Shown here: positions 28,283 through 59,508 of the stretch, in pieces
Layout of the letters: the number at the start of each line of letters is the position of its first letter
How positions within the stretch are numbered: position 1 is the stretch's first letter
From: Bacteroides luhongzhouii
GTDB lineage: Bacteria > Bacteroidota > Bacteroidia > Bacteroidales > Bacteroidaceae
Direction: 5' to 3'
NCBI RefSeq assembly: GCF_009193295.2
Contig: NZ_CP059973.1
Span: 3,658,001-3,722,000 of the forward strand
Length of the DNA: 64,000 nucleotides
Translations under genes and position numbers: made by a program
The notes under the pieces: generated by a model
Database searches by the model: none
What the model saw: only the letters and a program-made list of their open reading frames with translations
Told to the model about the DNA's origin: nothing

Positions 28283-29686
28283 ATGAAGTCTACAATCAAT
28301 TTTGGTTATCTTATATTCCTTTCTGTTGTGGCAGCATTGGGAGGATTCTTGTTCGGATATGATACTGCAGTTATATCGGGAACAATTGCCCAAGTGACTC
28401 AACTTTTTCAATTAGATACGCTACAACAGGGATGGTATGTAGGATGTGCTTTAGTAGGCTCTATCGTAGGTGTCCTTTTTGCAGGAATCTTAAGCGATAA
28501 GTTAGGAAGAAAACTTACGATGGTTATTTCAGCTGTATTGTTTTCCACATCAGCCTTAGGATGTGCTCTATCAGCCGATTTTACCCAATTGGTGGTTTAT
28601 CGGATTATAGGTGGAGTAGGAATAGGGGTTGTGTCCATTGTTTCTCCTCTTTATATATCAGAACTAGCTGTAGCGCAGTATAGAGGACGCTTGGTGTCAT
28701 TGTATCAGTTGGCTGTAACAGTTGGCTTTTTGGGAGCTTATTTAGTTAACTATCAATTATTGGCATGGGCGGAGAGTGGTACTCAATTAAGTGTGGACTG
28801 GTTGAATAAAGTATTTATTACTGAAGTATGGAGAGGTATGTTGGGTATGGAAACATTGCCGGCAATCTTATTCTTCATTATTATATTCTTTATTCCGGAA
28901 AGTCCTCGTTGGCTAATTGTAAGAGGTAAGGAATTGAAGGCTGTAAATATACTAGAGAAGATATACAATTCAATGACAGAAGCAAAAAGTCAATTAAAAG
29001 AAACGAAATCTGTACTTATCTCTGAAACGAAATCAGAATGGTCGTTATTGATGAAGCCTGGAATTTTCAAAGCTGTCATTATTGGTGTATGTATTGCTAT
29101 TTTAGGACAGTTTATGGGTGTGAATGCAGTGCTTTATTATGGCCCTTCTATCTTTGAAAACGCAGGACTTTCAGGAGGAGATTCTCTTTTTTACCAAGTT
29201 CTGGTAGGACTAGTCAATACATTGACCACTGTTCTGGCTCTTGTCATCATCGATAAGGTGGGCCGCAAGAAGCTGGTTTATTACGGAGTTTCGGGCATGG
29301 TGCTCTCTCTGGTCCTTATCGGTCTTTATTTTCTCTTCGGAGATTCCCTGGGAGTATCCAGCTTCTTCCTTCTCGTTTTCTTCCTGTTCTATGTATTCTG
29401 CTGTGCCGTATCCATCTGTGCCGTGGTTTTCGTACTCCTCTCGGAGATGTATCCCACCAAGGTTCGCGGACTGGCCATGTCGATAGCAGGATTTGCTCTG
29501 TGGATCGGAACGTACCTGATCGGACAGTTAACCCCCTGGATGCTCCAAAACCTTACCCCCGCCGGAACATTCTTCCTGTTCGCCCTCATGTGCGTGCCGT
29601 ATATGATGATTGTCTGGAAACTCGTGCCCGAGACCACCGGGAAGTCGCTGGAGGAGATTGAAAGATACTGGACCCGTTCGGAATAA
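28283..29686 (+). CDS. MFS sugar transporter (NanT-like candidate), mosaic gene
   Basis: A 467-residue, twelve-helix sugar porter of the major facilitator superfamily. It has the intracellular motif DKLGRKL after helix 2, PESPRW before the central loop, DKVGRKK in the second half and PETTGKSLEEIE at the C-terminus. Located in the inner membrane and next to a GlcNAc/ManNAc 2-epimerase gene, it probably imports sialic acid, ManNAc or a related sugar, like NanT of B. fragilis. The base composition changes abruptly near 29220: the 5' two-thirds is AT-rich, the last 470 bases are clearly GC-richer. That last part, from 29189, is repeated almost exactly in inverted orientation at 59508-58995. Confidence 0.85.
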   Translation: MKSTINFGYLIFLSVVAALGGFLFGYDTAVISGTIAQVTQLFQLDTLQQGWYVGCALVGSIVGVLFAGILSDKLGRKLTMVISAVLFSTSALGCALSADFTQLVVYRIIGGVGIGVVSIVSPLYISELAVAQYRGRLVSLYQLAVTVGFLGAYLVNYQLLAWAESGTQLSVDWLNKVFITEVWRGMLGMETLPAILFFIIIFFIPESPRWLIVRGKELKAVNILEKIYNSMTEAKSQLKETKSVLISETKSEWSLLMKPGIFKAVIIGVCIAILGQFMGVNAVLYYGPSIFENAGLSGGDSLFYQVLVGLVNTLTTVLALVIIDKVGRKKLVYYGVSGMVLSLVLIGLYFLFGDSLGVSSFFLLVFFLFYVFCCAVSICAVVFVLLSEMYPTKVRGLAMSIAGFALWIGTYLIGQLTPWMLQNLTPAGTFFLFALMCVPYMMIVWKLVPETTGKSLEEIERYWTRSE

Positions 29687-29702
29687 ATATAAAACAGACC
29701 TT
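29189..29702 (+). repeat. Outer inverted repeat, left copy (MFS 3' end)
   Basis: 514 bases matching 59508-58995 in reverse orientation with only a handful of differences. It begins at TTTTACCAAG inside the MFS gene and ends 16 bases after its stop codon at AAAACAGACCTT. The repeat edge contains TACCA-N5-TGGTA and the palindrome GACTAGTC. Similarity resumes, more weakly, over the 2-epimerase gene. Confidence 0.92.
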
Positions 29703-29820
29703 ATAATTAATCAATTAACAACTGGACAGTAGAAATAGCTAGAGATGTTTTTTTGTATGGCCATTCAATAAACGTTATCATCGATATATCTATCCATACT
29801 GTCTTATAATAGATAATATT

Positions 29821-30996
29821 ATGGATTTAAAAAAATTAGCAAATCAATACAAGGATGAACTTTTGGACAATGTCCTTCCCTTTTGGCTCAAAAACTCGCA
29901 GGATCATGAATATGGTGGTTATTTCACTTGCCTTGATCGTGAAGGAAAAGTTTTCGATACGGATAAATTCATTTGGTTGCAAGGTAGAGAAGTATGGATG
30001 TTCTCTATGCTCTACAATAAAGTAGAAAAACGTCAGGAATGGTTGGATTGTGCTATTCAGGGTGGCGAATTTCTAAAAAAATATGGACATGACGGCAATT
30101 ATAACTGGTATTTTTCTCTTGACCGTTCGGGTAGACCATTGGTAGAACCATACAATATATTTTCGTATACATTCGCCACCATGGCTTTCGGTCAGTTAAG
30201 CTTGGCTACAGGTAGTCAGGAATATGCAGATATTGCCAAGAAAACCTTCGATATTATCTTGTCTAAAGTGGATAATCCGAAAGGAAAGTGGAATAAGCTT
30301 CATCCAGGTACTCGCAATTTGAAGAACTTTGCCCTGCCGATGATCCTCTGTAATCTTGCTATGGAAATAGAACATCTTTTGGATAAAAGTTATCTAAAAG
30401 AAACAATGGAAACTTGCATCCATGAAGTTATGGAGGTTTTTTATCGTCCTGAACTTGGTAATATCATTATTGAAAACGTAGATATAGATGGAAACTTGGT
30501 AGACTGTTTTGAAGGCCGTCAGGTGACCCCAGGTCATGCCATTGAAGCGATGTGGTTTATCATGGATCTGGGTAAACGCCTGAATCGTCCTGATTTGATA
30601 GAGAAAGCCAAAGAGACCACTCTTACAATGCTCGATTATGGATGGGATAAAGAGTGTGGCGGCATTTATTACTTTATGGATCGTAATGGTTGCCCACCTC
30701 AACAATTGGAGTGGGATCAGAAACTTTGGTGGGTGCATATTGAAACGCTTATTTCTCTACTGAAAGGCTATCAACTAACGGGAGATCAAAAATGTCTGGA
30801 ATGGTTTGAAAAAGTACATGACTATACATGGACACATTTCAAGGATAAAGAATATCCCGAATGGTACGGGTATCTGAACCGAAGAGGAGAAGTGTTGCTT
30901 CCACTCAAAGGAGGAAAATGGAAAGGATGCTTTCATGTGCCAAGAGGATTATTTCAATGCTGGAAGGTATTACAAAATTTGAGTGAAATAAAATAA
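29821..30996 (+). CDS. N-acylglucosamine 2-epimerase (copy 1)
   Basis: Interconverts ManNAc and GlcNAc; in Bacteroides sialic acid pathways this epimerase replaces the kinase route (NanE of the nanLET type). The 391-residue (alpha/alpha)6-barrel protein has GRQVTPGHAIEAMWF at about 232-246, KLWWVHIETL at about 303-312 and KGCFHVPRGLFQCW near the C-terminus, motifs of renin-binding protein type epimerases. No signal peptide, so cytosolic. It is 134 bases from the MFS gene, the widest gap in the operon. A second copy at 57710-58879 is about nine-tenths identical in protein sequence by eye. Confidence 0.9.
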   Translation: MDLKKLANQYKDELLDNVLPFWLKNSQDHEYGGYFTCLDREGKVFDTDKFIWLQGREVWMFSMLYNKVEKRQEWLDCAIQGGEFLKKYGHDGNYNWYFSLDRSGRPLVEPYNIFSYTFATMAFGQLSLATGSQEYADIAKKTFDIILSKVDNPKGKWNKLHPGTRNLKNFALPMILCNLAMEIEHLLDKSYLKETMETCIHEVMEVFYRPELGNIIIENVDIDGNLVDCFEGRQVTPGHAIEAMWFIMDLGKRLNRPDLIEKAKETTLTMLDYGWDKECGGIYYFMDRNGCPPQQLEWDQKLWWVHIETLISLLKGYQLTGDQKCLEWFEKVHDYTWTHFKDKEYPEWYGYLNRRGEVLLPLKGGKWKGCFHVPRGLFQCWKVLQNLSEIK

Positions 30997-31015
30997 TTAA
31001 TGAAAAATGTTACAT

Positions 31016-32410
31016 ATGAAAAGGATATTTATAATAGCATGTATTATTTTGACCATTGCTTCTACAGCTTTTGCTGAAGAATGCAGAGTTGGGCTAACCT
31101 TGATTCCTCCAGGCACAATTACGAATAAAGTAGATTTGGACATACGTGCAGGTATTGTCAATAAAGGGAATACTCAACAGGACTTTTATGTCTCTATTTA
31201 TTTGAATGACGTAAATCAAGATTCATTAATTCATTTTTCTCGTATAACATTGGCACCGGGGAGTTCTCGGGAAATAAAGTTCTCTTTAAAAACAACTAAC
31301 AAGATTGGTAGGAATCGCATCATCCTTAAAGTCAAAGAGAAAAATGAAGAATTTACAATTTCTAAAGACTTTGAAGTAATTAATTCAGAAATTCGATCTA
31401 CGCGTCTGATAGACGGAGCATGGGCAGGCCTTTATCATTGGAGCGAGATAGAAGGAAAGCATTGGAATCCTGATATAAAAAAGATGACTGATGATCAATG
31501 GCGTGAGTTGGTGCGTTCTATGCATAGTATAGGGATGGATGTTATAGTTCTTCAAGAAGTTTTTCGCAATCAGGACTATGTAGGAAAACATGATTTGAAT
31601 ATAAACAACTACCAAGGAAAAGCATTTTATCCTTCCACTCTTTATCCAGGAAGGATGCCTATTTCTGCGAAAGACCCAATAGGAGCTATTCTTTCTGAAG
31701 CGGACAAACTAGGAATGTCAGTTATGATGGGAGTAGGAATGTTCGCTTGGTTTGATTTTACTGTAGAGTCTCTTGAATGGCATAAGCAAGTAGCCAAAGA
31801 ATTATGGGATATGTATGGAGATCATCCTTCTTTCTATGGCTTTTACGTATCCGAAGAATGTGCCGGTAATCTGTATAATTCAGAATCGACCAATGAGGGA
31901 CAGATGATGCGTAAGAAAGAGATTGTGGATTTCTTTCGTGAGTTTAAGAAATACACCTCCCAATTTGCTCCGGAAAAGCCCGTAATGCTTGCTACCAATA
32001 GTATGGAAGTACTAAAAGGTGCAGACACTTATCCCACTTTATTACAAAATCTCGATATATTATGTCCATTTGGTTTTGCACGTATGCCAGAAGGAGACCT
32101 TACAGGAAAAGAAGCGGCCGATATTTTGCAAAAATTCTGTGATGATGCCGGTGCGCACTTATGGTTTGATCTTGAAGCTTTCTTATTCAATCCGGATAAT
32201 TCTCTTTATCCTCGTCCGATAGATGAGATCATCCGTGATTTGAACTTGCTTGACAATTTTGAGAAAGTACTATGCTATCAATATCCAGGAGTCTTTAATA
32301 ATCCAAAGATGTCGATACGTATAGGAGAAGAACGTACAATTGATCTGTATAATGCCTATAAGACTTACATGAAGAAAATAAAAGCAGATCGTTACAACAA
32401 AATCAAATAA
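31016..32410 (+). CDS. Secreted DUF4434 protein with N-terminal beta domain
   Basis: The protein is 464 residues from the ATG at 31016 and starts with a signal peptide (MKRIFIIACIILTIASTAFA). Residues about 22-125 form a beta-sandwich-like domain. The rest is a DUF4434-type barrel with LIDGAWAGLYHWSE, MDVIVLQEVF, MMGVGMFAWF and YGFYVSEECAG segments. Acidic residues at the ends of strands (QEV, SEE, DLE) would suit glycosidase catalysis, but no activity is known to me. It follows the epimerase by 19 bases in the PUL1 operon. Confidence 0.7.
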   Translation: MKRIFIIACIILTIASTAFAEECRVGLTLIPPGTITNKVDLDIRAGIVNKGNTQQDFYVSIYLNDVNQDSLIHFSRITLAPGSSREIKFSLKTTNKIGRNRIILKVKEKNEEFTISKDFEVINSEIRSTRLIDGAWAGLYHWSEIEGKHWNPDIKKMTDDQWRELVRSMHSIGMDVIVLQEVFRNQDYVGKHDLNINNYQGKAFYPSTLYPGRMPISAKDPIGAILSEADKLGMSVMMGVGMFAWFDFTVESLEWHKQVAKELWDMYGDHPSFYGFYVSEECAGNLYNSESTNEGQMMRKKEIVDFFREFKKYTSQFAPEKPVMLATNSMEVLKGADTYPTLLQNLDILCPFGFARMPEGDLTGKEAADILQKFCDDAGAHLWFDLEAFLFNPDNSLYPRPIDEIIRDLNLLDNFEKVLCYQYPGVFNNPKMSIRIGEERTIDLYNAYKTYMKKIKADRYNKIK

Positions 32411-32441
32411 CCTTTTCACTTAATAAATTAAATTCATTATT

Positions 32442-33629
32442 ATGAAAACTATCACACAATTTATTTTTATTATTTTGTGTTTATCAGATATGATATTCAC
32501 TTCATGTGCTGATGGTGATTTCGGAGCCAATCCGTATGATCCGAATACCCCAATTACGGTATCACAGCTACCTAAAGTACTTTCTTTCACTCCTACAGAG
32601 GGAAAGGAGGGTGATGTAATTACTATTACAGGAGTAAATTTTACAACTGCCACTAATGTCGCTTTCGGTGGGAAAGGTGCGTCTAGTTTTGAAATTATTG
32701 ATGATGCTACTATTGAGGCCGTTGTTAGTTCGTATGGAGGTACAGGTGCGGTAGCAGTTACAAATCATAAAGGTACACGTTCATTGGAAGGTTTTCTATT
32801 TATCAAAGAAATTGACCCGACAGAGAATCCGAATCTGGCATTGAATGGCTATGCAACAGGTTCGGCTGCTATTAGCGGAAGTATCTCGAACATCAATGAC
32901 GATAATGATAAATCCTGGTGGCAAGCTGCAGGTAACGACAATGAATGGGTGAAAATAGACCTCGGGAAAATATATAGCATTAATACTGTAGTGATGACAT
33001 GGGATATGAACGCAGCAGGTACTGATTGTGACCTTATGATTTCGGAAGACGATGTTAATTACACAACTATCTATTCTATCAAAAATTGGGATGCAGTCTC
33101 TAATGATGGAATTAACAAAGTCAGCTTTGACAATGCCAATGCCCGTTATGTCAAATTAGCAAATATGAAGAACTCTGCTACTCCATATAATATGACATTG
33201 TTTGAGGTTGAAATATATAATACTCCACCGGCAGAGAATTTGGCATTGCAGAAGATTGCATCCGCTTCTTCTAATAATGCGGCGGCTTTCAATGCAGTCT
33301 ATGGAAATACTTCATTTATGTGGCAAGCAGAAGGCAATGATGACGAGTGGTTCAAGGTAGATCTTGGAAAGATTTATACTATTAATAATGTTGTCATACA
33401 ATGGGATGCGGGCGCTTATGCTGCTGATTGTGAAATCCTCATTTCGCAGGACGATGTAGAATATACTTCGGTTTATTCTATCACGGGATGGGATTCTGCC
33501 GCTACAGAAGGTGCTCAGGATATGAATTTCGACAATGTGGATGCTCGTTATGTCAAGGCTTTACTCAAGAATGGAGCTACACCTTGGCGAATGACAATCA
33601 AGGAATTTGAGGTATACAAACAGTGGTAA
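32442..33629 (+). CDS. Surface glycan-binding lipoprotein: IPT/TIG plus two F5/8C (CBM32-like) domains
   Basis: A 395-residue lipoprotein (lipobox around FTSC, Cys22). An IPT/TIG domain (about 43-125, PKVLSFTPTEGKEGDVITI) is followed by two discoidin/CBM32-like domains (about 130-262 and 265-395), which are clear internal duplicates: both have WQA(A/E)GND(N/D)EW(V/F)K(I/V)DLGKIY. No enzyme domain is present. It should sit on the outer surface and bind glycans (galactose, GlcNAc or sialoglycans are common ligands of the family), taking the role of a SusE/F-type protein. It is in the PUL1 operon before SusC, which is an unusual position. Confidence 0.82.
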   Translation: MKTITQFIFIILCLSDMIFTSCADGDFGANPYDPNTPITVSQLPKVLSFTPTEGKEGDVITITGVNFTTATNVAFGGKGASSFEIIDDATIEAVVSSYGGTGAVAVTNHKGTRSLEGFLFIKEIDPTENPNLALNGYATGSAAISGSISNINDDNDKSWWQAAGNDNEWVKIDLGKIYSINTVVMTWDMNAAGTDCDLMISEDDVNYTTIYSIKNWDAVSNDGINKVSFDNANARYVKLANMKNSATPYNMTLFEVEIYNTPPAENLALQKIASASSNNAAAFNAVYGNTSFMWQAEGNDDEWFKVDLGKIYTINNVVIQWDAGAYAADCEILISQDDVEYTSVYSITGWDSAATEGAQDMNFDNVDARYVKALLKNGATPWRMTIKEFEVYKQW

Positions 33630-33647
33630 TATTTATAATTTAATAAT

Positions 33648-34832
33648 ATGAAAAAAATAATATCAATTCTGTCAATATTAATAGTGCTTCCTATACTTAC
33701 ACTTTCATCCTGTGATACAAGCACTGCTCCGCCTCCTACCAATGAGGAGAATTTGACAGAACAGACTATGGATGTAGTATATGATAATGTGATGACTTAT
33801 CAGCTCTCTTATATCCGTTCTTTGCAGCTTTCCAGTGGAGCTATAAAGGATAAAGATACTTCGAACAGTAAAATTACTCCTTATTTTGCCCATTTTGCAG
33901 TTTTGGCTTTACTGAAAGATCCTACAAATCAGAATATAGAGGCAGTGAAGAAATATATTAAATGGTATCTTGGCAAACTGAATGGCATTACGAATCCTTA
34001 TAAAGGAGGCGCAGAAATAGAAGGTTCTGTCTATGACTATTTTGGTGATTCGGAAACTACTCAAGGAACGTATGACTCTGTGGATTCTTATGCGGCTACT
34101 TTTTTGGAAATCATCATGGAATTTGCTCAAACATCCGGAGAAAATAAAAGCTGGCTTGAACAGTATAAGAGCAAAATCTCTTTGGTAGCAAGCGCAATGG
34201 TGAAAACGATCGATACCGACTTTAACCAGTTGCCAGGCACTATCACAGAAGATGAAAATGACGGTCTTAGCGTTGCTTCGTATGTTTACGACGTAAAATA
34301 CCTGATGGATAATTGCGAAGTAAACATAGGACTTAAAGCTGCCAAATGGCTTAAAGATAACAACCTGATCGATAATGATTATGATTTTGCGGGCCTATTG
34401 GCAAAAAATACGGAAGGTATAGGTACATTATGGAATGGAACTACTTATGATTGGTGGAAAAGTAACTCTGTAACCACCGACTGGAAACAATTCTATCCTG
34501 ACGCAACAGCTCAACTTTATCCGGGCATGTTTAATGTGATTGAACCGAATAGTCAAACTGCTAATAAATTGTATACTCAATTTAATAAAACATATACTAG
34601 TTGGGCCAACGGGGTAACTTACTCATCTTTCCCTTGGACAATTATTGCATATGCGGCAGCCACTATTAATGATACAGTACGAGTGAATACCTACTTGAAG
34701 CATATTAATTCTTTAAATATTAAAGGACAGCAAAAAACGAATTGGTATAGTATGGAAGCAGGCTGTATTGTTCTAGCTATCGATAGGATAAAGAATCCGG
34801 TTATTGACAGTGAGTATACGCCTATAAATTAA
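33648..34832 (+). CDS. Lipoprotein of unknown function, mostly helical
   Basis: A 394-residue lipoprotein (lipobox LSSC, Cys22, followed by a proline-rich spacer STAPPPTNEE). The body is predicted helical with evenly spaced Trp/Tyr (IKWYLGKLNG, NYDFAGLLA-like and SFPWTIIAYAAATIND segments), which suggests an (alpha/alpha) toroid like those of several polysaccharide lyases and glycosidases. I do not recognise the family and see no signature catalytic motif. It lies between the CBM32-like lipoprotein and SusC (18 and 20 bases) and should be a surface or periplasmic part of PUL1. Confidence 0.6.
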   Translation: MKKIISILSILIVLPILTLSSCDTSTAPPPTNEENLTEQTMDVVYDNVMTYQLSYIRSLQLSSGAIKDKDTSNSKITPYFAHFAVLALLKDPTNQNIEAVKKYIKWYLGKLNGITNPYKGGAEIEGSVYDYFGDSETTQGTYDSVDSYAATFLEIIMEFAQTSGENKSWLEQYKSKISLVASAMVKTIDTDFNQLPGTITEDENDGLSVASYVYDVKYLMDNCEVNIGLKAAKWLKDNNLIDNDYDFAGLLAKNTEGIGTLWNGTTYDWWKSNSVTTDWKQFYPDATAQLYPGMFNVIEPNSQTANKLYTQFNKTYTSWANGVTYSSFPWTIIAYAAATINDTVRVNTYLKHINSLNIKGQQKTNWYSMEAGCIVLAIDRIKNPVIDSEYTPIN

Positions 34833-34852
34833 TACTATAAAATAGATTACAT

Positions 34853-37800
34853 ATGAAAAACTATAATAATGAAAATAAGAGCCAGAGCTTGATATTAACA
34901 TTATGCATGATAATATTTCTGCTTTCACCATCTGTCTTATTCGCACAGAAACAGAATATAACGGGTAAGGTGATTGATGTTCAGGGACAGCCGGTTATAG
35001 GTGCTACTGTTTTATTGCAAAACACTACTACAGGTGTGATAACAAATATGGACGGAGAGTTTGTACTAGTCAGTCCCGCTAAAGAAAACACGATCACTGT
35101 TAGCATGATAGGATATAATTCTGTCACTGTCAAAGCGGTAGCCGGTCAACGGGTTTCTATTACTCTGATAGAGAAAACGTATGAGCTGGATGGTTTAGTC
35201 GTGATTGGATATGGTTCTATTGCTAAGAAAGATATTACGGGAGCTGTCGGAGTTGTCAGTGGAAAAGAGCTAAAAGATATGCCTGTAAGTAGCATTAATA
35301 ATGTCCTTCAGGGTAAAGTTCCCGGTCTGACTGTTACTTCCAGCAGTGGTACTCCGGGTGCGGGAAGTGTTACCCATATCCGTGGTATTGGTTCTATTAC
35401 AGGTTCTACAACCCCTCTGTATGTAGTAGATGGTCTTCCGCAAACCGGTATTGATTATCTGAATCCGAATGATATTGAGTCAATAGCCGTTCATAAGGAT
35501 GCTTCGGTAGCTGCTATTTATGGTTCTCGTGGAGCAAACGGAATTATTATCATTACGACTAAATCAGGTAGCCTTGAAAACAAAGCGCAAGTTAGTTATG
35601 ATGGATATATCGGTTGGCAAACACCTTGGAAACGTCCGCATATGCTTAATGCCGCAGATTACATCACTTATAAAAATCTGGCAGCTGACAATGCCGGTCA
35701 GGAGCGTGTTGCCGCTTTTGCTACCCAAGAAAATATTGACGCAGTTCTCAACTTCGTTAATAAAAATTCAGGCCCCAATGGAACTGACTGGTGGAAAGAG
35801 ATTATCAATGATGGGGCATTTATGCATAACCACAATATTAGCGTCAATGGCGGAACTAAAAATATAGGAATACTTTCCAGCCTAGCTTACACAGACCAAG
35901 ATGGTATAGTTAAAGGTTCGAACTATAAACGTATTTCTTGGAGAAATAACTTCAATATGAAGATTTCAAAACGCGTCTCTTTAACTGCTAATGTCGGTAT
36001 CATCGATGAAAAACGTCAATTGATTGACGAGAACAACCCTGCTACCGGTACTGTATTCAGTGCAATGGGAGCAGATCCTATCACACCTGTATTCCGTAAT
36101 AATTTGGTTGACGTACCTATTTTTCTAAGTCAGATTTACAATGGGTATGAACCGAATAATCTCTATTCGCAGTATTCCGGGATCTTATTCTCCAATAAAC
36201 GCAATCCGGTGGGACAGATTCAAAGAATGAGACAGAGTACTTATGAATATCTTTATGTAAAAGCAGGAGCAAATCTGGAGATTAAGTTATTTGATTTTCT
36301 GAAGTTCAATTCGCGCTTCGGCATGGATATTAGTAGAAGCCTAACTGATGGATTTCAACCTAAATACACCCTCAATGCCAATGATTACGCCAATGAGAAT
36401 ACAGTGATACAGGATAATTCCAGAAGCAACTATTTTGTATGGGAACAGACTCTTTCTTACGATCAAACCTTCGGGAAGTTTAAGATAGGAGCATTACTCG
36501 GTACTTCAGCTGAAGAAACAAGCGTTTCGAGTGTCAATGCTTCTATACAAGGGGTGATAAATAATGATAAGGATATGGCTATTCTTAATGCAGGCACAAC
36601 AAACCCGGCAGTATCCGGCTATCCTTATGACAACTCGATGTTATCATTCTTCGGACGTGTCAGTCTGGATTATGACAGCAAATATCTTATTGCTGCCAAC
36701 CTACGTCGTGATGGTTCCTCTAAATTTGCCGACGGACACAAATGGGGAACATTCCCATCCGTATCGGCTGCATGGCGCTTCTCCAGCGAATCGTTCATGG
36801 AATCTACTCACAATTGGTTGAGTGACGCAAAGCTGCGTATCAGCTATGGTTTGATTGGTAATCAAAATATTAGCGGGGGCGGATATGCTTCTACGTATGG
36901 AAGTACAATCTATGATCGTTACTCTTTCGGCTCCCCAAATACGGCGTCCATTGGTGCTGGCATTATTACCGTTGGAAATCCTGTTCTGAAATGGGAAACC
37001 TCTAAACAATTTGACATAGGTCTTGATTTAAGTCTCTTCAATAATAGTATTGAGATTGTAGCGGACTATTTCCGCAAGAATATAGACGATATGTTGATGC
37101 AAGAGCCTCAACCTACTACATTAGGGTTCCCGAACTTTCCATATGCAAATGTAGGATCTATGCGCAATGTAGGATGGGAATTAGGAGTTACTTATCGCAA
37201 AACATGGGGAGATCTCAACTTTACAGCTTCCGCCAATATTTCTACTTATAAAAATGAAGTGATCTCTTTGGGTAATGGCGATGCAATTTATGGTTCAGCA
37301 TACAATAATAATACCATTACTAAGACAGAAGTGGGGCAACCGGTAGGATATTTCTATGGATATGTGACCAATGGTATTTTCCAGAACGCAGAGCAAGTAG
37401 AGGGTAGTGCGCAAAGAGAAACGGCAAAGCCTGGTGATATTCGTTATAAAGATTTGAATAATGACGATGTACTCGATGATAACGACCGTGCCAAGATTGG
37501 AGATCCCTGGCCTGACTTTGTTTACGGTCTGTCACTTGGAGCATCATGGAAAGGTTTTGATTTCAATATGTTTCTTCAGGGATCACAAGGAAATGATGTG
37601 ATGAATATGACTCTTTACGATTTTGAATCAGGAACGGGTTACATGAATGCTCATTCAGATTTCCTCAAACGTGCTTGGAATGGTGAAGGTTCAACAGACA
37701 AGTATCATAGAATATCTGCCGATCAAGGTCAGAATCAGCTTATTTCCGATTATTTTATCGAAGACGGTTCATACTTTAGAATCAAGAATTTGCAGATCGG

Positions 37801-50776: not shown

Positions 50777-52234
50777 TTAGTTTTTATCCCACCAAATACG
50801 TGTATACTGACTATCACCTCCCATTCGTTCAATAGCTTCTTGAACATTTATCGGGTTATATCTTATCTCATCTGTAGAATATGAATAGCGGCGAGGCATA
50901 TCAGAATTACCTGGCCAGTGATATATAAGTGGAGCAATAGACGGTTTACCTGTACGTCTTACTAGATTCCATCCTTGAGGGCCGTTAGGAAATAATGCTA
51001 ACCAAAACTGTGTATACAAATTTTCTTCCGAATAAGGTACCTTAGTCATAAAAGATTGAATTTGTTCATCCGGAATGTTATATGATTCTAAAGATAATCT
51101 TACTGCTTTATTATAAAAAGTAGTAGCATCGCCCTGAATGAATCCTTTTTGAATAGCCTCTGCTAGCAAGAAATGTACTTCAGAAGCTGTAAATAGAACA
51201 AACGGAGTTTCTCCCTGAATAAAATAATCACCTATATCACAATAATTGGGAATATAGTCATCTTTATAATGGGCATTCAAATCTTCGATTCTTTGTCCCG
51301 AGGGTAATCCAATATATTCTCCATTAATATTTTTAGCCATATATATGTGCATACGTGGATCTTGATTAACTGCTAGCCTGTCATACATCGTTTTAGAAAT
51401 CCTCATTTCATCCCATCCAGCAACAAACGCATATGGATTCTTTACATGGTAAGTTGCACCTCCTTCATCAGGAATCAATCTGACATTATCCTCATTTGCT
51501 GATATATAAAGAGATTGATTTTGCCAGTCAATGGATGCCAAAGTTGTTTTAGTGATCTCATCTGCAGCAACATTTGAACATTGCATAGCAAGTCTCAGAA
51601 TCATTGAATTTCCAAACTTAATCCATTTATCCAAATCTCCATTAAAAAAGACATCTGCTGTTCCTAATGATGTATATCCACTATTTTTATTTGCACTTAA
51701 TGTGGAGACAGCAGTCTGTAGCTGGCTAATTAAATCTTTATATATAAACTCTTGACTATCATATTTGGGAGCTACAGATTTAAACGCTTCAGAATAAGGA
51801 ATGTCACCATAGCAGTCTGTCATATATTGAAACATATAGGCACGCCAAATTCTCGCTATTGCTTCATGATTAACATTTTTAATCTTTTGAGACAGTTCAA
51901 TGGCATGCTCGCATAAATGGAGACCTGCAAAGGCTTCATCTGAATACCACCATGACCATACCGAATTTGCAGGTGAGGGTTCATAATGTGCAGAAGTAAA
52001 ATTTGCTTTTATTGTAGCGACATATTGCACCCAATCTAAAGTCGTTAATTGATTTGTATTTTGCCAAATACCAACTGAAAGCCCTGATCCGGTGACAAAA
52101 GAGCGAGTTAATATAGGAGCCGGGTCAATGATAACCGCGGTGGTTTTTGGAAAGTCTAATTCCTCAAAATCTGAAGTACATGAGAATAATCCTAAACTAC
52201 AGGCTAATGTACTTATTAATATATATTTCTTCAT
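50777..52234 (-). CDS. SusD/RagB-like lipoprotein (PUL2, SusD-like_2 type)
   Basis: A 485-residue lipoprotein (lipobox LFSC, Cys19) with TSDFEELDFPKTT after the lipid anchor, the WSWWYSDEAFAGLHLCE segment and QFWLALFPNGPQGWNLVRRTG (here only cited in part) near the C-terminus, as in the SusD-like_2 family. It is the lid partner of the SusC encoded 18 bases upstream and belongs to a different SusD subfamily from PUL1, so the two cassettes should import different glycans. Confidence 0.92.
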   Translation of the reverse strand: MKKYILISTLACSLGLFSCTSDFEELDFPKTTAVIIDPAPILTRSFVTGSGLSVGIWQNTNQLTTLDWVQYVATIKANFTSAHYEPSPANSVWSWWYSDEAFAGLHLCEHAIELSQKIKNVNHEAIARIWRAYMFQYMTDCYGDIPYSEAFKSVAPKYDSQEFIYKDLISQLQTAVSTLSANKNSGYTSLGTADVFFNGDLDKWIKFGNSMILRLAMQCSNVAADEITKTTLASIDWQNQSLYISANEDNVRLIPDEGGATYHVKNPYAFVAGWDEMRISKTMYDRLAVNQDPRMHIYMAKNINGEYIGLPSGQRIEDLNAHYKDDYIPNYCDIGDYFIQGETPFVLFTASEVHFLLAEAIQKGFIQGDATTFYNKAVRLSLESYNIPDEQIQSFMTKVPYSEENLYTQFWLALFPNGPQGWNLVRRTGKPSIAPLIYHWPGNSDMPRRYSYSTDEIRYNPINVQEAIERMGGDSQYTRIWWDKN

Positions 52235-52252
52235 AATTCTTTTTTTATAATT

Positions 52253-55200
52253 TTAGAAAGTAACATTCACTCCAAAAGTAAACTGCATAGTTTCAGGCAT
52301 ACCAAATATTTCTATACCCGACGCATTTCCTGTTGTTATATAAGTTTCAGGAGATACATTAGGAACATGTTTCATTAGATAACAAAGATTATTTGCGTTT
52401 ACATTAAAATTTATATTATCAATAAATTTTATTTTGTGCACATCTCGACGTAGGTTATATCCTAAACTAATTTGTCGTAAGCGAATATAGGATGCATCGT
52501 AAATCCACATTTCAGACACTCCGCTTACACGTTGCCAATACAATTGAGGATCTACAGCATATGACCCATATACTCCATTTTTTACACCTTCCACCATATA
52601 ACCGATATTAGGAAGTACTCCTGTTTCTTGATTTAAAAATTTGGCTAATGCCCATTCATCACGTCCTTCGATTGTTGAGCTAAGTACTCCAAGTTCTGAT
52701 CCTTTCATATTCGAATAGGAAAACATATCATGGCCTAGTTTTCCATCGATCAACAGGCTGAAAGAGAAATCTTTATATGTAAATCCTGTACTAAAACCTA
52801 ACAGCCAATCAGGGTATATTTTCCCTAATTTCTGCATAGTGTCATTGGAGCCATTTTCATTTTGTTTTATAGTGGGGAGATTGCTATCATCTAGAATTAA
52901 GTATCCATTTTCGTCTCTATTAAATGCGGTTCCCTGCATTGTACCAACAGCTTCTCCATTCATGGCATTTATTGTCATTCCTGAGGCTCCACCTAGTGTT
53001 AATACTGGTACATCATCCGGCAATTCTTTTACTTTATTCCATTGGTAACTAATATTGGCTCCTGCCCACCATTCCATTTGTTTATTTTTAAATAAACTAC
53101 CTTTTATCTGTGCTTCTATACCCGAGTTCTTGATGTATCCTGCATTAATGATGCCACTTGAATAACCAGAAGAAGGAGCCAATGGAGCAGTAAATATCTG
53201 ATTTTCAGTCCCTGTTGTGTAATACGATAAATCAATATTAAATCTATTTTGCCACATGATCAAATTAAGTCCAACTTCTGTAGATTTTGTCAATTCACTT
53301 TTTAAGTCTGGGTTTACCCGTTTAGAAGGAATAAATCCATAGGGTAGTCCGTGAAATTGATTTGGAGAAGTTCCATATACATTATACCTTTGTGAGCTGT
53401 AGTTTCCTCCACTACCAACCGCGGCCCATGATGCACGTAATTTTAACAGATCTACGCTTTTGCCAAGATCAAATGTTTCAGAAACAATCCAACTGCCACT
53501 TACGGAAGGATAAAAGATAGACCAATTTTCAGGAGATAGAACCGATGTCCAATCATTACGGGCTGTAATATCTAAAAAGAATTGACTATCCCAATCCATA
53601 GACAAAAAGCCGTATATAGATTGTACTTCACTCTCTGCTATTCCCTGATTACTAACTAAATTATTGAAATTCTGAATAACATAATTCCCTTCTAAATTTA
53701 TTAATCCAGATTCAGACTGACTGGTCATACTATATACATTACGCTTCATCAAATTTCCTCCAACTGATGCATTTAGACCAAACTTTCCAAATTTATGGCT
53801 TCCATTCAATAGGAAATCATAATTTTCTTCGCTAAAATCATTGTCACTAAAAGTAATAGTAGCTAATCCTTGATTCTTAAAGTAAGTATTAGTAGCTGTT
53901 TGACGTTGTCTTTCATCAGTGTAATAATCTAAACCTCCCCTTGCCTTTAAATTCAAGGCAAATGGTAATTTCAACAAGTTTTTCAAATCTATATTAAACT
54001 CTACAAAACCAAGAATCCTCTTACGTTTATCATAATTGGTATTTAAGTTTTCAGTCCAATATGGATTATTAAGTAATGGTGATTTAGCAAAAGACAAATC
54101 AGTTGGAGGCAAAATACTACCATTTTCGCTTTGGGTATATTGTTCTGTCCAAATTATAGGCATTCCGTTGTTTGTTTGATAATTGCGTAGCATATCCATC
54201 CCTAAAGAGCGTGGTAAATACCACATTGCATAAATAGGATTATCTGGAGACCCTCCTAAATTGGGGCGATTTTCAGCTTTTTGATCTATATAATTCGCTT
54301 TAGCATCAATGGATAGAAAATTACCCAGTTTAGTGTCAAAACGAAGAGTAATAGAATTTTTCTTTATTTCGTTACCTGGTACTATACCCCTTTCATTTGT
54401 ATTAGTATAGGAGAAATAAACTCCCATTTTTTCATTCTTGTTTGCAATTGATAAATTGTGATTGTGAGAAAGCCCTGTTTGTAAATAGTCATCATAGGGG
54501 TGAGAGGTACTTGATAATGTTTGTTTTTGTCCTAAGAAATTGGTAACTTCCTGACCTTCAAGTTTAGCTCCCCAACTTTGATAATCTGTTGATATGTATT
54601 TTCCTGCAGAACCTTGGGAATATTCGTTCTGAAAATCGGGCTTTATTGAAGGAGTGCTGACCTGCAACTGATAATTGTATTTGATACCTAATGATTCTTC
54701 TTTCTTACTCCCCTTTTTGGTTGTAATCATGATAACGCCATTTTGTCCTCTTGAACCATAAAGGGCTGCTGCAGCTCCTCCTTTCAGTACAGAAATTGAT
54801 TCAATATCATCTGCATTAATGTTGTTGGCTGCATTTCCATAATCTGTACCACCCCATTGTCCTGTGCCATCAGCGCCTCCGTCTACTCCTCCTGTATTAT
54901 CCATTGGAACACCATCCACCACATATAAGGGTTCATTTGATCCGGTTAAAGAGCTTACTCCACGGATCGTAACTTTTGATGAGCCGCCGGCTCCACTACC
55001 ACTAGATGATATATTTAATCCTGAAACCTGGCCACTTAACGCCTCTAATGGGTTCACTTTGGAAAAAGCTGAAAGGTTATTTCCTTCAACGTTACTAACA
55101 GCATATCCTAATGCTTTTTTATCTCTTTTTATTCCCAATGCAGTTACTACCACTTCCTCTAATTGCTGAGTATCTTCTTTTAAAATAACTTTTATAAAGT

Positions 55201-55471
55201 TTTGGTTTCCAGCTTTCAGTTCTTGTGTTATATATCCAATAAACGACACAATAATAGTTCCGTCAGTAGAAGAAAGTTTAAGTTCAAATTTACCTTCCAT
55301 ATCCGTTATAGTTCCATTCCCAGAACCTTTTTCTTGAACAGAAGCTCCAATAACTTCCATTCCTGAAGAATCTATAACTTGCCCTTTTATATTCTTTTGA
55401 GCATACAATGTAGTTGTCGATAATAAACAGACAACAAATAGCATCATTAAAAATTGCATTCTTTTTTTCAT
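52253..55471 (-). CDS. SusC-family TonB-dependent outer membrane transporter (PUL2)
   Basis: A 1072-residue SusC/RagA protein. Signal peptide to LYAQ, carboxypeptidase-like domain (IKGQVIDSSGMEVIGASV), TonB box area (EEVVVTALGIKRDKKALGYA), plug (about 115-255, EPLYVVDGVPMDNTG and AALYGSRGQNGVIMITTKKG) and barrel ending MQFTFGVNVTF. It partners the SusD at 50777-52234. It belongs to the larger OMP_RagA_SusC type that pairs with SusD-like_2 proteins. Together with the GH92 enzyme next to it, an alpha-mannoside-containing N-glycan is the likely substrate (inferred). Confidence 0.95.
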   Translation of the reverse strand: MKKRMQFLMMLFVVCLLSTTTLYAQKNIKGQVIDSSGMEVIGASVQEKGSGNGTITDMEGKFELKLSSTDGTIIVSFIGYITQELKAGNQNFIKVILKEDTQQLEEVVVTALGIKRDKKALGYAVSNVEGNNLSAFSKVNPLEALSGQVSGLNISSSGSGAGGSSKVTIRGVSSLTGSNEPLYVVDGVPMDNTGGVDGGADGTGQWGGTDYGNAANNINADDIESISVLKGGAAAALYGSRGQNGVIMITTKKGSKKEESLGIKYNYQLQVSTPSIKPDFQNEYSQGSAGKYISTDYQSWGAKLEGQEVTNFLGQKQTLSSTSHPYDDYLQTGLSHNHNLSIANKNEKMGVYFSYTNTNERGIVPGNEIKKNSITLRFDTKLGNFLSIDAKANYIDQKAENRPNLGGSPDNPIYAMWYLPRSLGMDMLRNYQTNNGMPIIWTEQYTQSENGSILPPTDLSFAKSPLLNNPYWTENLNTNYDKRKRILGFVEFNIDLKNLLKLPFALNLKARGGLDYYTDERQRQTATNTYFKNQGLATITFSDNDFSEENYDFLLNGSHKFGKFGLNASVGGNLMKRNVYSMTSQSESGLINLEGNYVIQNFNNLVSNQGIAESEVQSIYGFLSMDWDSQFFLDITARNDWTSVLSPENWSIFYPSVSGSWIVSETFDLGKSVDLLKLRASWAAVGSGGNYSSQRYNVYGTSPNQFHGLPYGFIPSKRVNPDLKSELTKSTEVGLNLIMWQNRFNIDLSYYTTGTENQIFTAPLAPSSGYSSGIINAGYIKNSGIEAQIKGSLFKNKQMEWWAGANISYQWNKVKELPDDVPVLTLGGASGMTINAMNGEAVGTMQGTAFNRDENGYLILDDSNLPTIKQNENGSNDTMQKLGKIYPDWLLGFSTGFTYKDFSFSLLIDGKLGHDMFSYSNMKGSELGVLSSTIEGRDEWALAKFLNQETGVLPNIGYMVEGVKNGVYGSYAVDPQLYWQRVSGVSEMWIYDASYIRLRQISLGYNLRRDVHKIKFIDNINFNVNANNLCYLMKHVPNVSPETYITTGNASGIEIFGMPETMQFTFGVNVTF

Positions 55472-55506
55472 ATTCTATTATTAAATTTATGAGTTAATAA
55501 ATTTGT

Positions 55507-57699
55507 TTATAAAGGTTTGTTGCACATTTGATATTCTAATACTCCTCCTTTCATTATTTCGTCATAACTGATATAATGTTTATCCAGCAATTTCCCATTC
55601 AACTTTATTGATTGAATATATTTGTTCTCTTCGGAATTGTCATGAGCGACAATTTGCATTTTCTTCCCATTATTTAATATAATTGTCGCTTTACTCATAA
55701 GTGGCGAACCAAATACAAATGTCCCAGAAACAGGATTAACAGGATAGAATCCTAAAGTTGAGAATATATACCAAGCTGACATTTGTCCGCAATCTTCATT
55801 TCCTATTAGACCATCATGTTGCGTAGTGTAAAATTGCTTACAAACTTGTCTGACATATTCCGCAGTCTTATATGGCTGTCCCATGCATGTATACAAATAT
55901 AATACGTGATGACTAGGTTCATTACCATGTGCGTATTGCCCTATCATTCCTGATATATCAATAGATGCTCCTTCATTCAAATCTGAACTAACTATAAATA
56001 AACTATCTAATTTTTGTAGGAATGTTTTTTTATCACCGAAAAGTTTTGTTAATCCTTCTATATCATGGGGAACTAACCAAGTGTATTGCCAAGCATTCCC
56101 TTCAACATAGTCGTCCTCCATATGCATACTGTAAAATGGGTCAAATTCTTTTCGCCAATTTCCATTTGATAATTTTCCGCGCATAAAATTAGTTTGAGAA
56201 TCGAAATAGTATTGATAATTTTTCGATCGTTTAAGAAACTTCTGATATTCCTGTTGTTTCCCCATCTTCATTGCAAGCATAGCAACTGAATAATCATCTA
56301 TTGCATATTCTAATCCTTTTGCTACAGACCAAGGTGTTTTATCTGCTGATATATATCCATTAAGTCTTACATCTTCTAAACCATTGATATCCATTTCTGC
56401 AATACTGGCCACTGCATTGTAGGCCTGTTCTTTATCTATGTTTTGAAAGTTTTTCAGACAAGCGTCAACCACAACCGGAATGGAGTGAATACCGACCATA
56501 CAATCTGTTTCGTTACCTGCTAAATGCCAAACTGGCATTCTGCCTTGTTGTTTATAAATAGTTAACAAAGTGTTAATATAATCTGGAACTCGATTGTCTA
56601 TTAAAGTATAAAGAGGGTGAACGGCACGATATGTATCCCATAACGAAAAAGTTGTATAAGGGATGAATCCTTCTGCCATATATATTTTCCCATCAGCTCC
56701 TCTATATTTACCGTCAACATCTGCGAAAATGGAAGGTGCAATTAGGGTGTGATATAAAGCTGAATAGAATATTTTCATAACATCCGGTTCTGCTTCAAAA
56801 TCTACCTTTGCTAATTCTTGATTCCATTGCTTCTTAGCTACAGCTTTCACTTGATCAAAATTCCAATCAGGAAGTTCACTAATGAGGTTCATACTTGCTC
56901 CTTCTTCGGAAACATATGAAACACCTGTTTTTACTAATAGTGGTTCAGAAATATATCCAAAATTAAGTAGCACTTTTACACTGTTATTGTGCTTAAATAT
57001 CTTATATTTTTTTATGGGTTTAGAAAAAACACTACTAAAATGTATTTTGTGGTCAATGGCCCATTCATCAGAATAACGATATCCAACAATACTCGTATCA
57101 TTTAACAAATGACAAAAAGAATCCAAAGTTCCTTTACGAGAAGATAAGGATTTTGCACTTCCCTCTAAATCAATGATTACAAAAGCTTCTGTATTATGAG
57201 GATATGAATAACGATGAAGACCAACTCTAGCAGTTGAAGTTAATTCCACCTTTATATTATATTTTTCTAACCATACAGAATAATATCCTGGAACAACAGA
57301 TTCTTTATTCTTAGAAAATGTAGAAACATACATAGATGCAGGTAAAACATTTAATGTTGTATCTGGTAAACTATTGATTGGCATAAAAAGAATATCAGCT
57401 AAATCTGCAATTCCTGTTCCACTCAAATGAGTATGAGAAAATCCGATAATTGTTGAATCAGAAGCATGGTATGCGGAACACCAGTCCCATCCTGTGGATA
57501 AATTATTAGGCCCAAGCTGCACCATACCATGAGGAACTGAAGCTCCTACAAATACATGACCGTGTCCTCCGCTTCCAATTAAAGGATCTACATAAGTTGT
57601 GTAATCTTTTATTATCTCTTTTTTGGTTTTTGGGGAACAAGACATAATAAGCGGAAAAGAGCAACATATCCCTATAATATATATTCGAAATCGAAACAT
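55507..57699 (-). CDS. GH92 alpha-mannosidase, lipoprotein
   Basis: A 730-residue lipoprotein (lipobox IMSC, Cys21). GH92 enzymes are calcium-dependent exo-alpha-mannosidases that trim high-mannose and other N-glycans. It has the opening DPLIGSGGHGHVFVGASVP, HTHLSGTG at about 95-102, the GNETDCMVG stretch, the catalytic-acid segment YVEGNAWQYTW and the EDCGQMSAWYIFSTLG segment near the C-terminus. It is 35 bases upstream of the SusC start and 10 bases after the epimerase stop. Mannosidase plus 2-epimerase and nearby sialidase point to complex or high-mannose N-glycans of the host. Confidence 0.94.
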   Translation of the reverse strand: MFRFRIYIIGICCSFPLIMSCSPKTKKEIIKDYTTYVDPLIGSGGHGHVFVGASVPHGMVQLGPNNLSTGWDWCSAYHASDSTIIGFSHTHLSGTGIADLADILFMPINSLPDTTLNVLPASMYVSTFSKNKESVVPGYYSVWLEKYNIKVELTSTARVGLHRYSYPHNTEAFVIIDLEGSAKSLSSRKGTLDSFCHLLNDTSIVGYRYSDEWAIDHKIHFSSVFSKPIKKYKIFKHNNSVKVLLNFGYISEPLLVKTGVSYVSEEGASMNLISELPDWNFDQVKAVAKKQWNQELAKVDFEAEPDVMKIFYSALYHTLIAPSIFADVDGKYRGADGKIYMAEGFIPYTTFSLWDTYRAVHPLYTLIDNRVPDYINTLLTIYKQQGRMPVWHLAGNETDCMVGIHSIPVVVDACLKNFQNIDKEQAYNAVASIAEMDINGLEDVRLNGYISADKTPWSVAKGLEYAIDDYSVAMLAMKMGKQQEYQKFLKRSKNYQYYFDSQTNFMRGKLSNGNWRKEFDPFYSMHMEDDYVEGNAWQYTWLVPHDIEGLTKLFGDKKTFLQKLDSLFIVSSDLNEGASIDISGMIGQYAHGNEPSHHVLYLYTCMGQPYKTAEYVRQVCKQFYTTQHDGLIGNEDCGQMSAWYIFSTLGFYPVNPVSGTFVFGSPLMSKATIILNNGKKMQIVAHDNSEENKYIQSIKLNGKLLDKHYISYDEIMKGGVLEYQMCNKPL

Positions 57700-57709: not shown

Positions 57710-58879
57710 TTATTTATTTATTTCTTCTAATGTTTTCCAGCACTGGTACAGGCCTCTTGGTACATGGAAACATCCTTTCCATTTTCCTCCTTTGAGTGGG
57801 AGTAACACTTCTGCTCTGCGGTTCAGGTATCCATACCATTCGGGATGTTCTTTATCCTTGAAATGTGTCCATGTATAGTCATGTACTTTTTCAAACCATT
57901 CCAGGCATTGTTTGTCTCCCGTCAACTGATAGCCTTTCAACAAAGAAATAAGCGTCTCGATATGCACCCACCAGAGTTTCTGATCCCATTCCAGTTGTTG
58001 AGGTGGACAGCCGTTACGGTCCATGAAATAGTAGATACCTCCATACTCCTTATCCCAGCCATAATTAAGCATTGTAAGGGTGGTCTCTTTGGCTTTCTCT
58101 ATCAATTCAGGACGGTTCAGGCGTTTGCCTAGATCCATGATAAACCACATCGCTTCAATGGCATGTCCCGGAGTTACCTGACGACCCTCAAAGCAGTCGA
58201 CCAGACTGCCGTCTACATCTACATTTTCAACAATGATACCTCCAAGTTCGGGACGATAGAAAACCTCCATTACTTCATGGATACAAGTTTCCATTGTTTC
58301 TTTTAGATAACTTTCATCTAAAAGGTGCTCTATCTCCAGAGCCAGGTTGCAGAGGATCATCGGCAGGGCAAAGTTTTTCAGATTACGGGTCCCCGGGTGA
58401 AGTTTGTTCCATTTGCCTTTCGGATTATCCACTTTAGACAGGATGATATCGAAGGTTTTCCTGGCAATGTCTGCATATTCCTGATTGCCGGTGGCAAGAC
58501 TCAGCTGGCCGAAAGCCATGGTGGCAAATGTATATGAAAAGATATTGTACGGTTCTACCAGTGGTCTACCCGAACGGTCAAGGGAAAAATACCAGTTATA
58601 ATCCCCGTCATGTCCATATTTTTTTAGAAATTCGCCACCTTGAATGGCGCAGTCCAACCATTCCTGACGTTTCTCCACTTTGTTGTAAAGCATGGAGAAC
58701 ATCCACACTTCACGACTTTGGAGCCAGATGAACTTATCCGTATCGAACACTTTTCCTGCACGGTCCAGACAGGTGAAGTAACCACCATACTCATGGTCTT
58801 GCGAATGTTCAAGCCAGAAAGGAAGGACGTTGTCCAGAAGCTCATCTTTGTACAGACTTGCCAGTTTCTTGAAATCCAT
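57710..58879 (-). CDS. N-acylglucosamine 2-epimerase (copy 2)
   Basis: A second copy of the cytosolic ManNAc/GlcNAc epimerase, 389 residues from the ATG at 58879 (MDFKKLASLYKDELL), which matches the start of copy 1. The frame is open to an ATG at 58966, adding 29 residues (MDSKNNLGHSAGTSF...) that have no counterpart in copy 1 and look like non-family sequence; either start is possible. All motifs of copy 1 are present. Its codons are GC-richer than those of copy 1 and roughly 25-30 residues differ. It is the first intact gene of PUL2. Confidence 0.88.
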   Translation of the reverse strand: MDFKKLASLYKDELLDNVLPFWLEHSQDHEYGGYFTCLDRAGKVFDTDKFIWLQSREVWMFSMLYNKVEKRQEWLDCAIQGGEFLKKYGHDGDYNWYFSLDRSGRPLVEPYNIFSYTFATMAFGQLSLATGNQEYADIARKTFDIILSKVDNPKGKWNKLHPGTRNLKNFALPMILCNLALEIEHLLDESYLKETMETCIHEVMEVFYRPELGGIIVENVDVDGSLVDCFEGRQVTPGHAIEAMWFIMDLGKRLNRPELIEKAKETTLTMLNYGWDKEYGGIYYFMDRNGCPPQQLEWDQKLWWVHIETLISLLKGYQLTGDKQCLEWFEKVHDYTWTHFKDKEHPEWYGYLNRRAEVLLPLKGGKWKGCFHVPRGLYQCWKTLEEINK

Positions 58880-58994
58880 ACTATTATTTCCATTATAGAT
58901 TGGTATGGGTAATTCAGCGGTGAAAGAGGTGCCGGCTGAATGACCAAGGTTATTTTTACTATCCATATTTATAAAATGTTAGTTTATTGTTATT

Positions 58995-59508
58995 AAGGTC
59001 TGTTTTATATTTATTCCGAACGGGTCCAGTATCTTTCAATCTCCTCCAGCGACTTCCCGGTGGTCTCGGGCACGAGTTTCCAGACAATCATCATATACGG
59101 CACGCACATGAGGGCGAACAGGAAGAATGTTCCGGCGGGGGTAAGGTTTTGGAGCATCCAGGGGGTTAACTGTCCGATCAGGTACGTTCCGATCCACAGA
59201 GCAAATCCTGCTATCGACATGGCCAGTCCGCGAACCTTGGTGGGATACATCTCTGAGAGGAGTACGAAAACCACGGCACAGATGGATACGGCACAGCAGA
59301 ATACATAGAACAGGAAGAAAACGAGAAGGAAGAGGCTGGATACTCCCAGGGAATCTCCGAAGAGGAAGTAAAGACCGATAAGGACCAGAGAGAGCACCAT
59401 GCCCGAAACTCCGTAATAAACCAGCTTCTTGCGGCCCACCTTATCGATGATGACAAGAGCCAGAACGGTGGTCAATGTATTGACTAGTCCTACCAGAACT
59501 TGGTAAAA
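58995..59508 (-). repeat. Outer inverted repeat, right copy
   Basis: 514 bases matching 29189-29702 in reverse orientation with about four to six differences. It stops at 59508 in the middle of MFS coding sequence; beyond it is the unrelated leader of the sialidase gene. The equal length on both sides and the sharp edge show a single duplicated or exchanged segment. Confidence 0.92.
59011..59508 (-). pseudogene. Headless MFS transporter gene (3' third)
   Basis: Encodes the last 165 or so residues of the MFS transporter of PUL1, from about YQVLVGLVNTLTT to the stop at 59011, without the start and the first eight or so helices. The frame is intact and the protein part is the same apart from one or two residues. 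It has no promoter or start signal and cannot make a transporter in this orientation. It stands exactly at the head of PUL2, at the same place the complete gene holds in PUL1. Confidence 0.92.

Follow-up and report, generated by a model that had tools for sequence, protein, structure and literature searches.

A 64,000-nucleotide stretch of the Bacteroides luhongzhouii genome (contig NZ_CP059973.1, positions 3,658,001 to 3,722,000; G000:C1:3658001-3722000, the genome being one contig of 5.76 Mb), called the window below, carries two polysaccharide utilization loci (PUL1 and PUL2) that face each other between long inverted repeats. The reading that we prefer, with a probability of about 0.72, is that of a two-cassette expression locus, in which recombination between the repeat arms inverts the segment between them and so selects the PUL that stands behind a fixed head promoter. 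Inversion between the outer repeats had been proposed in a preliminary description of this DNA, and the proposal is now supported by an inverted joint in a related genome, by homogenised repeat arms, by the same plan in at least eight genomes of different species, and by a palindrome and a promoter-like box at the head.

In the proposed mechanism, the left part of the locus would stay fixed and would comprise a ROK regulator, its palindromic operator, the promoter, the head genes and approximately the first 300 codons of a sugar transporter gene of the major facilitator superfamily (MFS). The segment consists of two convergent operons, each opening with its own MFS 3' end and an epimerase gene and running towards the middle of the locus, which holds a GDSL esterase gene and, in the window, hairpins that resemble terminators. 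Homologous recombination between the arms would invert the segment and complete the MFS gene with either copy, thereby placing the other PUL behind the head promoter, and the displaced cassette would end headless beside a sialidase gene. The arrangement further suggests that the inversion would be driven by host RecA-type recombination, that it would be reversible within a strain at a useful rate, and that the headless cassette would be expressed at a low level.

Organization of the locus

The principal elements of the locus are the following:

23721..24953, minus strand: ROK-family regulator (NagC/Mlc-like), left anchor (Pfam ROK and HTH_24; NCBIfam NagC and Mlc matches below cutoff)
25165..25182, no strand: 18-bp perfect palindrome TAATAAAATATTTTATTA, proposed ROK operator (sole perfect match in the window)
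25209..25216, plus strand: TATATTTG, Bacteroides -7-like box of the proposed head promoter (motif scan)
28283..29686, plus strand: complete sugar-porter MFS transporter gene (constant 5' part to about nucleotide 906, exchangeable 3' part)
29189..29720, plus strand: left arm of the outer inverted repeat, MFS 3' end (repeat search)
29821..30996, plus strand: N-acylglucosamine 2-epimerase 1, constant proximal end of cassette 1 (Pfam; NCBIfam AGE equivalog, 731 bits against a cutoff of 600, run on epimerase 1 only)
31007..39604, plus strand: cassette 1 (PUL1), with DUF4434-like, F5/8 type C, unknown, SusC and SusD genes (Pfam)
42397..57699, minus strand: cassette 2 (PUL2), with GH92, SusC, SusD, DUF4623, GHL10, DUF5009, unknown, GHL10 and GDSL esterase genes (Pfam)
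57710..58966, minus strand: N-acylglucosamine 2-epimerase 2, constant proximal end of cassette 2 (Pfam)
58977..59508, minus strand: right arm of the outer inverted repeat, headless MFS 3' part with an open frame (repeat search)
59589..61220, plus strand: sialidase-like BNR protein, right anchor (Pfam)

The gene map confirmed that the two operons are convergent, as had been described, and both cassettes are PULs by their Pfam content, which includes Plug/TonB-receptor and SusD families and, in addition, GH92, GHL10 and GDSL. Their genes are closely spaced, with intergenic gaps of 6-31 nt in PUL1 (from the epimerase onward) and 3-68 nt in PUL2 (listed genes). The outer arms are 532 nt long, inverted and 98% identical; the near-identical inverted repeat of 514 bp that was noted earlier sits inside them and has two copies only in its own genome (search at E ≤ 0.001). 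It was also correctly noted that the PUL2-side MFS copy has no 5' part, since the copy at 59508 starts at MFS nucleotide 907. Beyond the arms, a weaker similarity of 85% extends through both epimerase genes (29813-30992 / 57708-58887), the proteins of which are 92% identical.

Opposite orientation in sister genomes

The inverted joint that the preliminary description had predicted for a related genome was found in G107, in which the segment is inverted relative to that of its sister G093 (B. finegoldii DSM 17565). The two genomes are colinear on both sides of the segment (97.9% identity over 8.5 kb of the left flank and 95.3% over 9.8 kb of the right side), while the interior aligns in reverse (95.8% over 13.8 kb and 93.9% over 17.5 kb), and the direction changes within the MFS 3' repeat. 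The MFS gene that is complete leads, in G093, to the SusC gene at 10003-13005 and, in G107, to the SusC gene that is found on the headless side of G093.

Misassembly of the G093 draft scaffold would give the same picture, and this draft is indeed in about 30 contigs, while arms of this kind break other assemblies (G001, G059, G104, G111 and G151). However, no N was present in the fetched locus regions of G093 and G107, and the arms of G093 are only 89.3% identical over 495 nt and therefore easily distinguished, so that an assembly mix-up is hardly credible. The apparently opposite order of the segments of G059 and G151 was not counted, both being free contigs.

Exchange between the repeat arms

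The point of exchange was located by scoring two-against-two site differences among the four MFS 3' copies of G093 and G107, where the arm amounts to 498 columns. Before the repeat edge, 12 such sites were linked to the flank; inside the arm, seven were linked to the flank, seven to the genome and one to the cassette; after the MFS stop codon, 55 were linked to the cassette, four to the flank and three to the genome. Since linkage to the cassette appears only after the arm, the exchange point lies in the arm, and this pattern fits homologous exchange along the arm better than cutting at one edge site.

A tree of 22 MFS 3' sequences (eight complete, eight headless and six single copies) gave neither the complete nor the headless copies as a clade. 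At the same time, the two copies of one genome were closest to each other in six of the eight genomes (G000, 99.0%; G044, 99.8%; G021, 97.8%; G107, 96.8%; G030, 96.4%; G121, 100%), with starred support for this pairing in G000 and G030 and identical copies in G121. The homogenised tracts span about 0.5 kb in G000 and G021 and about 1.7-1.8 kb in G044, G030 and G121.

The headless copies appear to be maintained as coding sequence. None of the seven carries a premature stop, and the ratio of nonsynonymous to synonymous divergence (dN/dS) among them is 0.032-0.137 (21 pairs). The arms of G093 differ from each other with a dS of 0.51 and a dN of 0.018, values that would be difficult to account for if the headless copy were not in use as well; if half of the changes fell on the headless copy, the rough binomial probability of such constraint would be about 2e-7.

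Inversion could also come from a site-specific recombinase whose gene lies elsewhere in the genome and which works at the repeat edge (MFS nucleotides about 900-940), the long arms serving only to complete the MFS gene. The edge is at the same place in all seven genomes read, and the approximately 33 nt around it (about 29188-29220) rank 16th of 454 windows in conservation among eight switch genomes, against 128th of 454 among six single-copy genes, which makes this stretch a possible recombination site. Crossover at the edge alone, however, would link the arm differences to the cassette, and just one of the 15 differences in the arm is so linked, with seven linked to the flank; a crossover fixed at the edge by such an enzyme was rejected on this ground. 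Moreover, homogenisation extends over different lengths in different genomes (about 0.5 to 1.8 kb), as homologous exchange would give. As for short inverted repeats as crossover sites, the observations point both ways: the arms are long and their differences do not follow the cassette, yet the edge is conserved.

No recombinase gene of the kind expected in or beside a recombinase-driven inverton was found in the Pfam results for the window or for the cassette proteins scanned in four relatives. The Pfam families listed for the scanned cassette proteins included transposases and no site-specific recombinase or regulator; these scans covered all listed window genes at 29821-58966, 16 of the 21 open reading frames (ORFs) of G021, 12 of 17 in G107, 10 of 17 in G044, 14 of 23 in G143 and one extra ORF of G093, which was otherwise represented by its G107 counterparts. 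Most of the proteins outside these scans were epimerases, SusC proteins or ORFs spanning piece borders; G030 was outside them as well, and three of 28 families in one scan were unlisted. There was no site-specific recombinase among the ORFs scanned in the rest of the window either, RuvX (6322-6747) being a housekeeping gene. Taken with the linkage pattern, these results make a distant recombinase improbable. The features of a switch based on homologous recombination (long near-identical inverted repeats, exchange between them and both orientations) were all observed, the orientations coming from sister genomes and not from one strain.

Recurrence of the two-cassette plan in Bacteroides

The head DNA was used to scan 119 and then 158 genomes of the genus, 71 of which (of the 158) gave some match; the genes were mapped in 18 of these 71. 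The two-cassette plan was present on one contig in 8 of 158 genomes, the source genome included (G000, G021, G030, G044, G093, G107, G121 and G143), and in four more (G001, G059, G111 and G151) the segment stood apart on its own contig or stretch, bounded by inverted epimerase sequences, as is expected because the repeats break assemblies. As genes were mapped in just these 18 genomes, and as the 158-genome scan scored only two stretches per genome and so missed the headless copy of G044 that the 119-genome scan had shown, these counts of eight and four are lower bounds. The plan has the head and the complete MFS gene on the left, then a 24-38 kb segment with an MFS 3' end and an epimerase gene at each of its ends, and the sialidase gene on the right. 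In seven genomes (G000, G021, G030, G044, G093, G107 and G143) the inverted MFS 3' copy begins at about nucleotide 900-907 and lies 24-38 kb from the complete gene, and in G121 the arms are 1688 bp long and 100% identical. The contig of G143 begins 89 nt before the MFS gene, its head lying outside the available sequence, and G104 is represented by the two flanks only, each broken at the repeat edge. The ROK gene is also located left of the head in relatives with contigs that extend that far. The sialidase gene was at the right end in all ten relatives with right-flank sequence, comprising complete loci and the right-flank pieces of G001, G104 and G111; in G059 and G151 sialidase-like DNA was on other contigs. 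The other five mapped loci (those of G053, G057, G073 and G118, and a second one in G044) have either a single MFS-epimerase unit or two that point the same way. G111 was considered as a locus cut at MFS nucleotide 911, and this was rejected: its two flanks and two-cassette segment stand at three places in a record with runs of N, which we read as an assembly split and not a deletion. A search of viral contigs with the MFS protein gave no relative.

Several irregularities accompany these loci. Contigs C4 and C3 of the G121 draft each carry a copy of 10.6 kb of the head region, the two being 100% identical, as a real duplication or an assembly artefact. The sialidase gene of G044 (C1, about 1678349-1678350) is missing about 110 bp that the window copy has, and between it and the headless MFS copy a short stretch resembles, by eye, an older MFS fragment, a hint that the headless copy was once longer. 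Contig C48 of G151, from a metagenome-assembled genome, has an odd one-strand order of DUF5009, GDSL, MFS 3' part and epimerase.

Turnover and exchange of cassettes

The proteins that remain constant across seven segments are the epimerases and the GDSL esterase, while the best SusC matches outside the sister pairs (G093/G107 and G030/G143) are at 24%-51% identity, and the first three proteins of cassette 1 have no counterpart in the segments of six relatives (E 1e-10, half length). A 16.4-kb cassette of G107 is 96.3% identical to one in G001, the flanks of which are only 81% and 77% identical to those of G107, and the other G001 cassette resembles a cassette of G044 (83.7%). Similarly, G021 and G111 have one cassette in common at 98.2-98.5% identity, against 92% and 87% for the flanks, and do not have the other in common. 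Judged from these identities, whole cassettes have evidently been moved between species. G001 has two complete GDSL genes, face to face, and cassette 1 of the window retains only the GDSL 3' piece with the hairpin, so cassettes of the form MFS 3' end-epimerase-variable part-GDSL may be swapped via their homologous ends. The head-linked cassette of G030 shows no SusC or SusD gene and looks as if it carried a deletion.

A wider proposal is that the locus serves as a two-slot platform for PUL expression and exchange. Its constant ends (MFS 3' end and epimerase on the outside, GDSL esterase and terminators at the centre) would allow homologous recombination to exchange the interiors among Bacteroides species, and inversion would pick which of two stored PULs works with the fixed regulator, operator and inner-membrane transporter. 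We consider this platform somewhat better than an even proposition.

The proposed head promoter and its palindrome

Two head genes lie between the proposed promoter and the MFS gene:

25264..27138, plus strand: FAD-dependent oxidoreductase, head gene (Pfam FAD_oxidored)
27180..28277, plus strand: DUF4434 protein, head gene (Pfam; close relative of PDB 4h41, 718 bits, which we take to be BT_0435)

The oxidoreductase had no match within the fetched regions of G093 and G107. Upstream of this operon, the palindrome stands 26 nt before the box TATATTTG, and both (25165-25216) lie outside the inverting segment. The palindrome occurs with no or one mismatch at all 11 other switch-bearing heads (G044, G021, G093, G107, G030, G121, G059, G151, G001, G104 and G111), and only once, at up to two mismatches, in each scanned sequence, which was the whole locus for G044, G021, G093, G107 and G030 and the head part for the others. 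One further site in the window, with two mismatches, is at 49929, inside the DUF4623 gene. In the proposed scheme, the ROK protein would bind this palindrome. The ROK gene of G104 and G053 matches in two or three separate pieces, as if frameshifted, and ROK control may be lost there.

The box is common to all six heads examined, and none of 300 rounds of letter shuffling gave any TAnnTTTG motif in all six. The earlier claim that no such motif precedes the headless copy holds on the minus strand of 58967-59700, even with one mismatch, which is weak evidence alone.

Evidence against the switch, and B. thetaiotaomicron

The observations in this section weigh against a switch, at least a strict one, and several of them favour an old inverted duplication with arms homogenised by gene conversion, accidental inversions over species time and an own promoter for each operon. 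Opposite orientation is found in just one genome pair, G030, G143 and G121 agreeing where comparable, and with one genome per species and no reads, switching within a strain was not seen. In G093 and in G143 the two copies fail to group with each other, and the pairing is weak in G044, G021 and G107. The low dN/dS of the headless copies is partly inherited through conversion from the complete copy. In seven headless regions (4596 nt) the exact box was found 0 times against 2.1 expected in letter shuffles (P = 0.11); its absence is thus not significant alone, and promoters may also lie inside the cassettes. The palindrome is also present, with one or two mismatches, in four of five single-copy loci (G053, G057, G073 and G118; it is absent at the second locus of G044), so that it goes with the head rather than with the switch.

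What speaks most against strict exclusivity comes from B. thetaiotaomicron. Judged by published gene names, strain VPI-5482 probably carries such a locus around BT0438-BT0455. There, BT0438-40 are named as alpha-N-acetylglucosaminidase, TonB receptor and SusD, BT0446-49 as DUF5009, family 10 hydrolases and phosphoesterase, and BT0451-54 as SusD, TonB receptor and, last by name order, sugar-porter MFS, with three names for four genes (PMC10434189); BT0455 is a GH33 sialidase (PMC7419316). By gene order and names, BT0439-BT0443 and BT0453-BT0449 look like the two cassettes, and both operons are reported to be BT4338-dependent and induced in vivo (PMC6989115) and to be regulated together (PMC6989115, PMC10434189). 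Both can therefore be transcribed in a population, which would reflect either a mixed population or separate promoters.

A duplication without a switch is nevertheless unlikely in our estimate. The same-edged plan is kept in at least eight genomes while the cassette interiors turn over, the headless copy of G093 is constrained despite its dS of 0.51 from its partner, and an operator-like palindrome stands at the head; all three are better accommodated by the two-cassette expression locus.

Relation to known inversion systems

Each PUL is usually regarded as a unit under its own regulation. SusCD-type inversions of gut Bacteroidales act at short inverted repeats with dedicated recombinases. The proposed switch is like the inversions reported for gut Bacteroidales, SusCD orthologues included, in that inversion changes which uptake or surface genes are expressed (PMC12632263), but here the arms of about 0.5-1.8 kb lie in a transporter gene, no nearby recombinase was recognised, whole multi-gene PULs are involved, and the head genes and the regulator are outside the segment. 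Inversions described in Bacteroides include promoters, segments moved into expression loci and inversions within genes (PMC12632263). As in the Mpi-type capsule promoters of B. fragilis (PMC12632263), orientation would choose expression, whereas the proposed promoter of the present locus stays in place and it is the coding block that inverts. Large, reversible inversions with no recombinase gene at the breakpoints are also described in another gut bacterium, Eggerthella lenta, for megabase capsule-cluster inversions, although those inversions have 16-bp repeats and involve no PUL exchange (PMC13174815).

A crossover within hsdS links a constant part to alternative ones, as proposed here for the MFS gene. 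In the locus described here, however, the two MFS 3' parts encode almost the same residues, and it is the operon behind them that changes. Both cases involve inversions among related genes (for type I restriction loci, PMC4948785).

The literature searched (titles and abstract openings, most subscription papers and bioRxiv being outside reach) contained no description of inversion of this locus. One inverton map of B. thetaiotaomicron states rules for repeats of 11-19 bp and upward, with at most two mismatches (PMC10994844), and longer inversions have likely been missed according to a preprint (PMC13174815); surveys based on short repeats and short reads would tend to miss loci of the present type. 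If the proposed reading is true, two PULs are stored and one at a time is coupled to a shared transporter and regulator, so that nutrient choice would become heritable and flipping, and the locus would offer a concrete route for the exchange of whole PULs between species.

Inner repeat and possible substrates

The centre of the segment in the window contains a second inverted pair:

39748..40544, plus strand: inner arm with GDSL esterase 3' fragment and hairpin at about 40191-40233 (repeat search)
40655..41515, minus strand: insertion sequence (IS)-type transposase ORF (DDE_Tnp_1_6), between the inner arms (Pfam)
42053..42842, minus strand: inner arm of the cassette 2 side, GDSL 3' end and hairpin (repeat search)

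The inner arms are 93.6% identical over 799 nt and flank the transposase ORF. That ORF aligns to positions 35-200 of 200 in the DDE_Tnp_1 model, its later part only, and may be broken.

The glycan-related families in the Pfam scans of the window and relatives were GH92, NAGLU, GH109, sialate-esterase-like and phosphodiester glycosidase, and a GH2 mannosidase-like gene adjoins the sialidase gene. The type of epimerase, the sialidase, the GH2 neighbour and these glycosidase families suggest host or microbial amino-sugar and mannose glycans as the targets of the locus.

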